In this document: piece by piece, positions 40,792 to 43,120 of the stretch | How the letters are laid out: every line of letters begins with the position of its first letter | Numbering within the stretch: the stretch's first letter is position 1 | Source of the DNA: Acidilobus saccharovorans 345-15 | GTDB taxonomy: Archaea; Thermoproteota; Thermoprotei_A; Sulfolobales; Acidilobaceae | Length of the DNA stretch: 64,000 bases | Direction of reading: 5' to 3' | Assembly: GCF_000144915.1 (NCBI RefSeq) | Contig: NC_014374.1 | Span: 1,426,001-1,490,000 of the forward strand | Translations under genes and position numbers: made by a program | The notes under the pieces: model-generated | The model's database searches: none | What the model was told of the DNA's origin: nothing | The model's input: only the letters and a program-made list of their open reading frames with translations

Positions 40792-41826
40792 TTGAAGTTC
40801 AAGAGCCTTGAGGAGGCTGTGGCCAACAGGAAGGTCCTGGTGCTCGGCATAGGCGGAGGGGGAGACGCCGCTGGGGCCCTCTACCTCTACCAGAAGGTCA
40901 GGAGGTTCGGCGGGAGGCCAATACTAGGCTCAGTGGTCTGGGAGAGGTACGCCATAGACCCCTACCCAGGGCCCATACCGCTTGAGGCCATGGTGGACGT
41001 CGACATACTCGGGGACTCCGCCGCCCTGGTCAGCGGGAGCTCATATGCAGTAAGGTTTGGGAGGCAGCTCAGGCCCCAGATAGTCAGGGCCGCCGAGCTC
41101 CTGGGCGAGAAGGCCCTCTTCGTCGACATAAGCAAGGGGAGCGAGGGGGTTAGGAGGGCCCTTGAGGCAGCCAGGGACCAGCTCGGGGTTGAGCTCGTCA
41201 TAGGGGTTGACGTGGGAGGGGACGCGCTCGCCCTCGGGTGCGAGGAGAACCTCTGGAGCCCGCTGGCCGACTCCGTCTCGCTGGCCGGCCTCGGCTCGGC
41301 CGGCGTCGACTCCCTCATAGCTGTGCACGGCCCGGGCGCTGACGGGGAGCTCTCGACGGACCAGGTGCTCTCCTACATAGCTGACGTGGCCGCCCAGGGA
41401 GGCCTGCTGGGCATATACGGCATAAACGAGGAGGAGGCGGAGCTGCTCGACAGGGCAACTAAGGCCATCGAGACTGAGGCCTCCCTGATGCCCCTGCTGG
41501 CCTTCAGGGGAAGGAGGGGGGACCAGAGGATAAGGGGAGGCACGAGGACCGTCAGGCTCTCGCCCGTCCTGGCCACCACCTACGTTATGGATGCGCTGAC
41601 CGTCTACAACAGGAGCCCGCTGGCCAGGGCCGTCTCAGGCACCATGGGGATCTCGCAAGCCAGGCAGATACTCAACTCCATGTGCATCTACACTGAGCTT
41701 GACCTTGAGTACGACCTCTTTAACATGAGGGGCTCCACCAGCTCCAGGCCCATGAGCCTCGAGGACATCAGGAGGGAGGGCATAGGAAGGCTCGTGAGGC
41801 AGGGCTGCAGGCCGGTTAAGTGTTGA
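40792..41826 (+). CDS. DUF1152 family protein
   Basis: A 344-residue protein with an N-terminal nucleotide-binding-like turn VLVLGIGGGGDAAGAL (14-29), then VDISKGSEGVRRAL, VIGVDVGGDAL, and the C-terminal GTRTVRLSPVLATTYVMD, all fitting DUF1152, an archaeal and bacterial family without a settled function. It was called by overall pattern. TTG start (TTGAAGTTC) preceded by CTGGGGCCTAGG and a TATA-like CTTTTAAG about 35 bp upstream. Its stop overlaps the convergent RHH gene by 11 bp. Confidence 0.82.
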   Translation: MKFKSLEEAVANRKVLVLGIGGGGDAAGALYLYQKVRRFGGRPILGSVVWERYAIDPYPGPIPLEAMVDVDILGDSAALVSGSSYAVRFGRQLRPQIVRAAELLGEKALFVDISKGSEGVRRALEAARDQLGVELVIGVDVGGDALALGCEENLWSPLADSVSLAGLGSAGVDSLIAVHGPGADGELSTDQVLSYIADVAAQGGLLGIYGINEEEAELLDRATKAIETEASLMPLLAFRGRRGDQRIRGGTRTVRLSPVLATTYVMDALTVYNRSPLARAVSGTMGISQARQILNSMCIYTELDLEYDLFNMRGSTSSRPMSLEDIRREGIGRLVRQGCRPVKC

Positions 41827-42175: not shown

Positions 42176-42198
42176 TGCTGTCTCCCCGTTGTAAGAGG

Positions 42199-42208
42199 AG
42201 TACTGCAG
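42199..42208. promoter_or_regulatory. AGTACTGCAG operator candidate, leftward promoter
   Basis: Ten-mer AGTACTGCAG between the leftward TATA box (AGTATATTAG, centred about 42221) and the predicted transcript start of the RHH-coiled-coil gene. The same 10-mer occurs at 42296-42305. Confidence 0.55.
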
Positions 42209-42295
42209 GAGGCCTAATATACTCTTATGTTACATAGAGTCCTATTGCAGGTTTCCTCTTGTAGTCCGAGAGGGACTTTCAATAAAGCCTCCAGT

Positions 42296-42305
42296 AGTAC
42301 TGCAG
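42296..42305. promoter_or_regulatory. AGTACTGCAG operator candidate, rightward promoter
   Basis: Second copy, within a TACTGCAGTA palindrome (42298-42307), about 17 bp downstream of a rightward TATA-like CAATAAAGCC (centred about 42283). Its offset from TATA equals that of the left copy. Confidence 0.55.
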
Positions 42306-42350
42306 TAGTATCGGAGCCCTGTTGGAGGGTGAAGACAGGAGGTGGAACGC

Positions 42351-42521
42351 ATGAAGGTGCTCAGCTTCAAGCTCGAGGACGACCTCCTCGAGCTCCTTGA
42401 GGAGTACTCAAGGAAGAGGAACATACCCAAGTCCGAGGTCATAAGGAGGGCCCTGAGGCAGTACATAAGCGCGGACAGGGACAGGCCCTACGTGGGTAAG
42501 TACATAAAGATCTACACGTGA
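42351..42521 (+). CDS. Small ribbon-helix-helix (CopG-like) regulator
   Basis: A 56-residue RHH protein: strand MKVLSFKLEDDLLELLEEY, turn RKRNIPKSEVIRRALRQYI (helix 2 with KSEVIRRAL, typical), then a short Tyr/Lys tail. Such proteins bind operator half-sites as dimers. The ATG is set by a strong Shine-Dalgarno, AGGAGGTG, 6 bp upstream. It diverges from the RHH-coiled-coil gene across 175 bp. Confidence 0.88.
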   Translation: MKVLSFKLEDDLLELLEEYSRKRNIPKSEVIRRALRQYISADRDRPYVGKYIKIYT

Positions 42522-42604: not shown

Positions 42605-43120
42605 GTGTCGCTGGAGTACGGCGGCTTTGAGGTCATAGGCGCGGAGGACGTGCACAGGGACATGCTGGAGAGGGCCAGGCACATTCAGAGGCCCGACGTC
42701 AGCCAGGCCATTAAGGAGAAGCAGGAGGTGATCATGGCCACCAGCAGGTGGTCCCCGAGGGAGGTCAGGGTCGGGTCCGAGATGCCGAAGCTTGAGGCCA
42801 GGCTGAGCAGGGCCTCAGCCCTCATAATAGTCATGCCTCCCAGGCACACGATGCTCGCAGTTGAGGCAAGCAAGGAGATGGAGGACCTGCTCGAGTGGGC
42901 CGAGGGCGCGGAGGGCAAGGCGATATTAGTCTACTACTCGAGGAAGGGCGCCATGACCACGGCCGCCTACCTCTACCTGGGCAACGTGATGGAGGAGGCT
43001 GACGTGGGCATACTCTTTGTCAACGGCCCGCCATCGGAGGTGGCCGAGGTCTTCAGCACCCTCGAGTCGAGGGGAGAGTACACCCCGGCCGAGGGGGGCT
43101 ACATAGACATAAACTTCTGA
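42605..43120 (+). CDS. Conserved-looking hypothetical protein
   Basis: Not recognised. The 171 residues form an alpha/beta protein: Met-rich helix at 15-30 (EDVHRDMLERARHIQR), strand SALIIVMPPRHTMLAVEASKE (about 71-91), AILVYYSRKGAMTTAAYLYLG (about 106-126), VGILFVNGPP. The strands and glycines suggest a small Rossmann-like or receiver-like fold. Codon use is normal for the window. GTG start preceded by CCTGGGGAGAAA. The last 22 bp overlap the convergent PPDK-N-like gene. Confidence 0.75.
   Translation: MSLEYGGFEVIGAEDVHRDMLERARHIQRPDVSQAIKEKQEVIMATSRWSPREVRVGSEMPKLEARLSRASALIIVMPPRHTMLAVEASKEMEDLLEWAEGAEGKAILVYYSRKGAMTTAAYLYLGNVMEEADVGILFVNGPPSEVAEVFSTLESRGEYTPAEGGYIDINF

Follow-up and report, generated by a model that had tools for sequence, protein, structure and literature searches.

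The window analysed here, a stretch of 64,000 nucleotides, corresponds to positions 1426001-1490000 of the 1,496,453-bp chromosome of the archaeon Acidilobus (genome coded G000). Two small genes, A on the minus and B on the plus strand, are separated by 175 bp and oriented away from each other according to the list of open reading frames of the window, which bears out the divergent arrangement given in a preliminary description of this DNA (Table 1). RHH proteins had been proposed there for both sides, which holds for B by Pfam and is likely for A, an RHH-like protein judging from a structural model and from a Foldseek ranking with E-values above 1. Gene A is convergent with a DUF1152 gene (40792-41826), resulting in a tail-to-tail overlap of 11 bp at 41816-41826. 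Downstream of gene B lies an ORF of 171 residues (42605-43120) without a Pfam match at E≤1.

Table 1. Genes and sequence features of the divergent locus (positions within the window).
Feature	Position	Strand	Remarks
Gene A, 119 aa, RHH-like with long C-terminal helix	41816-42175	-	GTG start, stop codon included; ORF and conserved family
A-side conserved element AAGAGGAGTACTG	42193-42205	+	16.1 bits with own genus omitted, p 0.005 (200 shuffles); invariant columns
Left copy of the 10-mer AGTACTGCAG	42199-42208	+	Exact match; overlaps the conserved element AAGAGGAGTACTG
TATA box of A, GTATATTA	42215-42222	-	Conserved columns
Middle element AAGAGGAAACCTG	42248-42260	-	Weak, 7.4 bits; its CTCTTG invariant in 6 aligned genomes
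TATA box of B, CAATAAAG	42280-42287	+	AATAAA invariant in 6 aligned genomes
B-side 11-bp tandem AGTAGTACTGC AGTAGTATCGG	42293-42314	+	Possible B site
Right copy of the 10-mer AGTACTGCAG	42296-42305	+	Exact match; unconserved
Gene B, 56 aa, RHH protein, counterpart of aCcr1	42351-42521	+	Stop codon included

No Pfam or NCBIfam model scored above its cut-off with the product of gene A. Comparison within the family revealed the highest conservation over the first 40 residues, including the stretches MPTVHLSL and GIQVTDLIK. The model of the A monomer (mean pLDDT 76.9, pTM 0.37) is composed of helices 10-23, 27-42 and 50-109, with the strand left unassigned. In this monomer model of pTM 0.37, the first two helices are placed as the RHH fold expects, and the long third helix is in line with the coiled coil proposed earlier for one of the two proteins. 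VapB, ORF56, CopG and Arc ranked first in the Foldseek search with this model, every E-value being above 1, and the best 60 rows of a profile search against the PDB were coiled-coil cross-matches, for example to haemagglutinin stems, and thus uninformative. Judging from the model, A is very probably an RHH protein with a coiled coil. It represents a conserved partner gene that has no name in the libraries searched and that can be removed in genetic tests.

The product of gene B matches the Pfam family RHH_1 with an E-value of 1.2e-10 (41.4 bits, gathering cut-off 20.5), and its model displays the succession strand 5-8, helix 10-23 and helix 27-40. Profile matches in the PDB comprise NikR, CopG and ORF56. 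Within NCBIfam the best match is aCcr1_fam (NF053762), with 51.9 bits against a cut-off of 60. The repressor aCcr1 is 58 residues long, binds an AGTATTA-type motif situated between TATA box and start, and represses division genes. In all 20 of the 20 Sulfolobaceae genomes read, the B protein adjacent to A is encoded divergently from A and has exactly this length; the one of genome G142 reaches 78.2 bits against aCcr1_fam and thus exceeds the cut-off. A scan of 40 genomes yielded 19 A-adjacent B proteins above the cut-off, to which B of the window, with 51.5 bits, does not belong. Since its score lies under 60 bits, B is called aCcr1-like here: by profile and gene order it is the syntenic counterpart of the 58-residue aCcr1 of Sulfolobaceae, short of a named member of the family. 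A further aCcr1-like paralogue of the same genome (378138-378251, minus strand) scores slightly higher, with 57.2 bits.

With SIRV2gp21 the B proteins of six Sulfolobaceae genomes have 30-33 residues in common, and with a protein of ATV 33-44; for eight paralogues the figures are at most 21 and 22, respectively. B of the window shares 16 and 18 residues with these viral proteins and hence resembles them no more than the paralogues do, so that the profile and the shared locus, rather than pairwise identity to the viral proteins, tie it to aCcr1. Searched against phage records, the window protein gave no match at E≤1; a Sulfolobaceae B matched 86 records, ten of them Streptococcus entries.

The arrangement of the two genes was followed through a sample of 157 genomes of the order, whose members live mostly in hot springs. 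Strong orthologues of A, defined by a profile match at E≤6.2e-22, occur in 101 of them and B-like proteins (profile, E≤1e-3) in 154; a count of A at E≤1e-3 (128/157) was set aside, because many weak hits fall into longer frames and resemble cross-matches between coiled coils. In 97 of the 101 genomes with a strong orthologue, A is accompanied by a divergent B; in the other four (G036, G159, G129 and G114) A is located at a contig end. For 88 of the 101 the divergence is seen from the listed coordinates, with 140-213 bp between the matches of A and B; ten of the remaining 13 loci were fetched, and a divergent B is present in nine. Among the listed genomes of family f9, G068 alone holds A at E≤6.2e-22. 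Outside the order, A was also found in two genomes of the class (G161 and G162).

In order to characterize the shared promoter region, one A-B intergenic region per genus was collected from 28 genera, with G036 omitted due to its position at a contig start; for Sulfolobaceae, 20 genomes out of the 29 of f11 supplied the regions, together with G033. An unseeded motif search in this set returned.agTATTccTCTT, the reverse complement of AAGAGGAATACT, and the 13-bp element has the consensus AAGAGGAATACTG. The log-likelihood of the search was 302.4, whereas 12 shuffled sets gave 71.2-98.2. Sites scoring at least 8 bits numbered 107 (36-49 after shuffling) and were present in the intergenic regions of 28 of 28 genera (11-21 after shuffling). 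When each genus in turn was left out of the model, the best site reached p≤0.05 (200 shuffles) in 25 of the 28 genera, with G026, G029 and G148 failing this level. The leave-one-genus-out test and the unseeded search are the fair controls, another site count having relied on a model that had been trained on the sequences counted.

The elements are frequently paired. Inverted pairs 15 bp apart occur in 11 of 28 regions, while the shuffled sets gave at most five for any spacing, and those five were overlaps of 5-7 bp. In many genera such a pair amounts to an inverted repeat of 28 bp, CAGTATTCCTCTT-NN-AAGAGGAATACTG. The A-B region of G024 (L053) contains a perfect 32-bp palindrome, ATATGTCTTCCGCTTTAAAGCGGAAGACATAT, between the two promoters. 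The core AAGAR-N-ARKAY is found no more than 48 bp from A in 17 of 32 genera, where 0.1 would be expected, and in 27 of 54 genomes; in Sulfolobaceae it is mostly absent from that position. A second, shorter box, GTAATAC/GTATTAC, is present in the shared region of 10 out of 19 genera (0.6 expected), the largest count of any 7-mer in 200 shuffles being 7.

For the window itself, the intergenic region was aligned with those of five relatives (G001, G002, G003, G007 and G019), of which G002 belongs to the same genus. The A-side element is situated between the TATA box of A and the start of A, which is expected near 42192. Toward gene B, conservation covers the TATA box (CAATAAA) and a tandem of 11-bp units, AGTAGTAYYG, which is shared with G003 only (AGTAGTACCGA/AGTAGTACCGG in that genome) and absent from the other four aligned relatives. 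Another site, computed at 42326-42338 with 10.2 bits, was discounted, as it falls into poorly aligned DNA near the start of B. The pattern AAGAGNARKAYYG has three copies in the Acidilobus genome, a number equalled by its reversed control; the copy in the window is the only one outside an ORF, and the element therefore looks locus-specific in this genome. GTARTACYG was rejected as a marker of a wider regulon, since its 27 genome copies, almost all within ORFs, compare with 83 for the reversed control.

Taken as a whole, the locus can best be regarded as the genes of an aCcr1-type repressor and of a second RHH-like protein, kept divergent across the order and sharing a conserved operator array, with a function predicted from sequence comparison. 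We consider it probable that the array is autoregulatory and specific to this locus, serving the aCcr1-type repressor and its conserved RHH partner. The 175-bp region would act as the shared promoter of A and B, the predicted operators being the 13-bp elements between the TATA box and start of A and between both promoters. Binding of A, B or both to these elements would block the promoters, and the pair would thereby limit its own level and set the ratio of A to B; any timing of the cell cycle by the pair would lie beyond this. The mutual or autoregulatory switch suggested in the preliminary description thus survives as the best reading, strengthened because the divergent pair is kept in 97/101 genomes and a repeated promoter element is conserved with it, while the operator named at that time, AGTACTGCAG, is unsupported. 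Several observations count against this reading, namely the score of the window B below the aCcr1_fam cut-off and under that of a paralogue, the 3 of 28 genera that fail the leave-out test, the weakness of the middle and B-side elements in the window, and the cdvA promoter of Acidilobus, which lacks both elements.

Which protein would occupy which site can be approached through aCcr1-like paralogues that have no A beside them. Upstream of 20 such genes the 13-bp element is at background (4/20, 3.4 expected), and the AGTATTA/GTAATAC box was detected in 8/20, with 0.94 expected. On these upstream counts, the 13-bp element would more likely be bound by A and the AGTATTA-type box by B. Four further B homologues for which no A neighbour was found include one with a marginal site of 8.5 bits. 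The paralogues carrying the box, which lies shortly before the start, are L213, L216, L227, L229, L230 and L231 in Sulfolobaceae and L219 and L225 in Acidilobaceae, and may be targets of the main repressor. Upstream of the Acidilobus paralogue at 378138-378251, neither the 13-bp element nor a GTAATAC-type box was found.

The same is true of the cdvA promoter of Acidilobus, so that repression of cdvA by this route is unsupported in this organism and cdvA was dropped as a target there. In the Sulfolobaceae genome G033, a GTAATAC box, GGAGTAATACC, directly precedes cdvA. Of 30 cdvA loci taken, four (G022, G036, G004 and G002) were dropped due to a wrongly chosen ORF or a cut locus; a site of 7 bits or more was present in 7 of the 26 read, a raw count without shuffle control.

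The paralogue counts also bear on the possibility that control of the region lies with the aCcr1-type repressor B alone, A being no more than its target and acting elsewhere, for instance on the nucleoid. The box-type sites would fit this idea, since they occur both in the shared region and upstream of the paralogues, where a B-type site stands without A. However, the 13-bp element does not rise above background at those same paralogues, which ties it to the A locus, and control by B alone is accordingly rather unlikely.

Less likely still is a third factor (a general regulator of chromatin or of the cell cycle, for instance) that would bind the elements while neither product binds its own promoter. 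Conserved sites alone do not name their binder, which leaves some room for such a factor; against it, the full element pattern lies outside ORFs only at this locus in the Acidilobus genome, unlike what a general factor would suggest, and DNA-binding proteins often have binding sites at the genes that encode them.

The 10-mer that the preliminary description had taken as the operator was found at both positions as two exact copies. The distance to the TATA boxes, put at about 17 bp there, is roughly 14.5 bp (A side) and 16.5 bp (B side) when counted from centre to centre. Its further attributes did not hold. With starts about 26 bp from the TATA centres, predicted near 42192 (minus) and 42310 (plus), the copies lie just upstream of the predicted starts and not over them, and instead of being placed symmetrically they form a direct repeat, in the same orientation on the plus strand, without mirror symmetry about the promoters. 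The proposed genome search for AGTACTGCAG yielded six exact copies compared with seven of the reversed control, and the four outside this locus are all located inside ORFs (two in a single ORF of 808 residues, one in an ORF of 295 residues and one in a long ORF); it was therefore rejected as a regulon marker. As an operator the 10-mer is unsupported: it is unenriched, and conserved surroundings are found at the left copy alone. The 808-residue ORF (L007, 502-2928) has a transmembrane-like end and contains the heptapeptide NLWNATN repeated in tandem.

That two identical 10-mers are a meaningless coincidence is another explanation, for which the absence of enrichment throughout the genome speaks. 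A repeated 10-mer arose in 36 of 3000 dinucleotide shuffles of the 175-bp region and is found in 232 of 2553 real segments of this length within the 64 kb, and the right copy, altered in all five aligned relatives, is unconserved. The left copy, in contrast, lies within a block of many invariant columns (AAGAG, A, TAC and G in the six-genome alignment), the same 10-mer is present at this position in G003 and G007, and the wider element around it is conserved across genera and families. Judged by sequence, the identical pair is weak evidence, the neighbourhood of the left copy is not, and AGTACTGCAG is a local, partly accidental view of a wider element. Chance is thus contradicted for the left copy and very improbable as a full account, and it may explain why the right copy matches exactly.

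A role of A or B as antitoxin of a type II toxin-antitoxin pair, suggested by weak matches below cut-off (A with the CopG and BrnA antitoxin models, B with those for RelB and VapB), can practically be dismissed, since the conserved partner is an RHH protein and no toxin, and the ORF list and Pfam searches gave no adjacent toxin gene among the neighbours, which are the second RHH gene, the DUF1152 gene and the 171-residue ORF.

A more far-reaching proposal, which is tentative and on the doubtful side, is that aCcr1, described to date as a single cell-cycle repressor, forms one half of an ancient two-RHH module, in which A as its constant partner binds the 13-bp array and opposes or completes aCcr1, the ratio of both, set at the shared promoter, timing entry into and exit from division across the order. 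If so, the viruses that encode only the aCcr1 half would circumvent the regulation of their host. The mechanisms behind the waves of gene expression in the archaeal cell cycle are still to be discovered, as stated in the accessible part of PMC7617429. The control of aCcr1 itself is part of this question, for which the conserved partner and the operator array provide a specific candidate, accessible to genetics in strains of Sulfolobus and Saccharolobus. The accessible parts of the literature covered describe no second RHH partner or neighbour of aCcr1; the two original papers on aCcr1 and a transcriptome of the cell cycle from 2025 lie outside this scope and may describe gene A.

Among known systems, the aCcr1 family (NF053762) of Sulfolobales and their viruses is the closest, its members being short RHH proteins that include the best NCBIfam match of B. 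According to the papers covered, among them PMC12284271 and PMC7617429, aCcr1 represses cdvA and cran1 and downregulates segAB. The window differs in its B protein of 56 residues, which scores below the family cut-off, and in the missing box at cdvA. CopG, ORF56 and other small autoregulatory RHH repressors resemble B in fold and presumably in autorepression through repeated elements; in contrast to these, the locus here combines two distinct RHH genes in back-to-back orientation, one of them with a 60-residue helix, and this arrangement is kept across the order. CdrS of haloarchaea is likewise a short RHH regulator of division genes (accessible part of PMC7617429) and resembles B in its connection to cell division, but its model matches a Sulfolobaceae B only weakly (18.8 bits, cut-off 100) and gives no match with B of the window. 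SegB, the RHH chromosome-segregation protein of Sulfolobales, belongs to the same order and likewise has sites near its own genes, as described in the accessible part of PMC12284271. Its 13-bp palindrome, TCTAGASTCTAGA, is unlike the 13-bp element found here, and its gene is paired with that of a ParA-type ATPase instead of an RHH gene.
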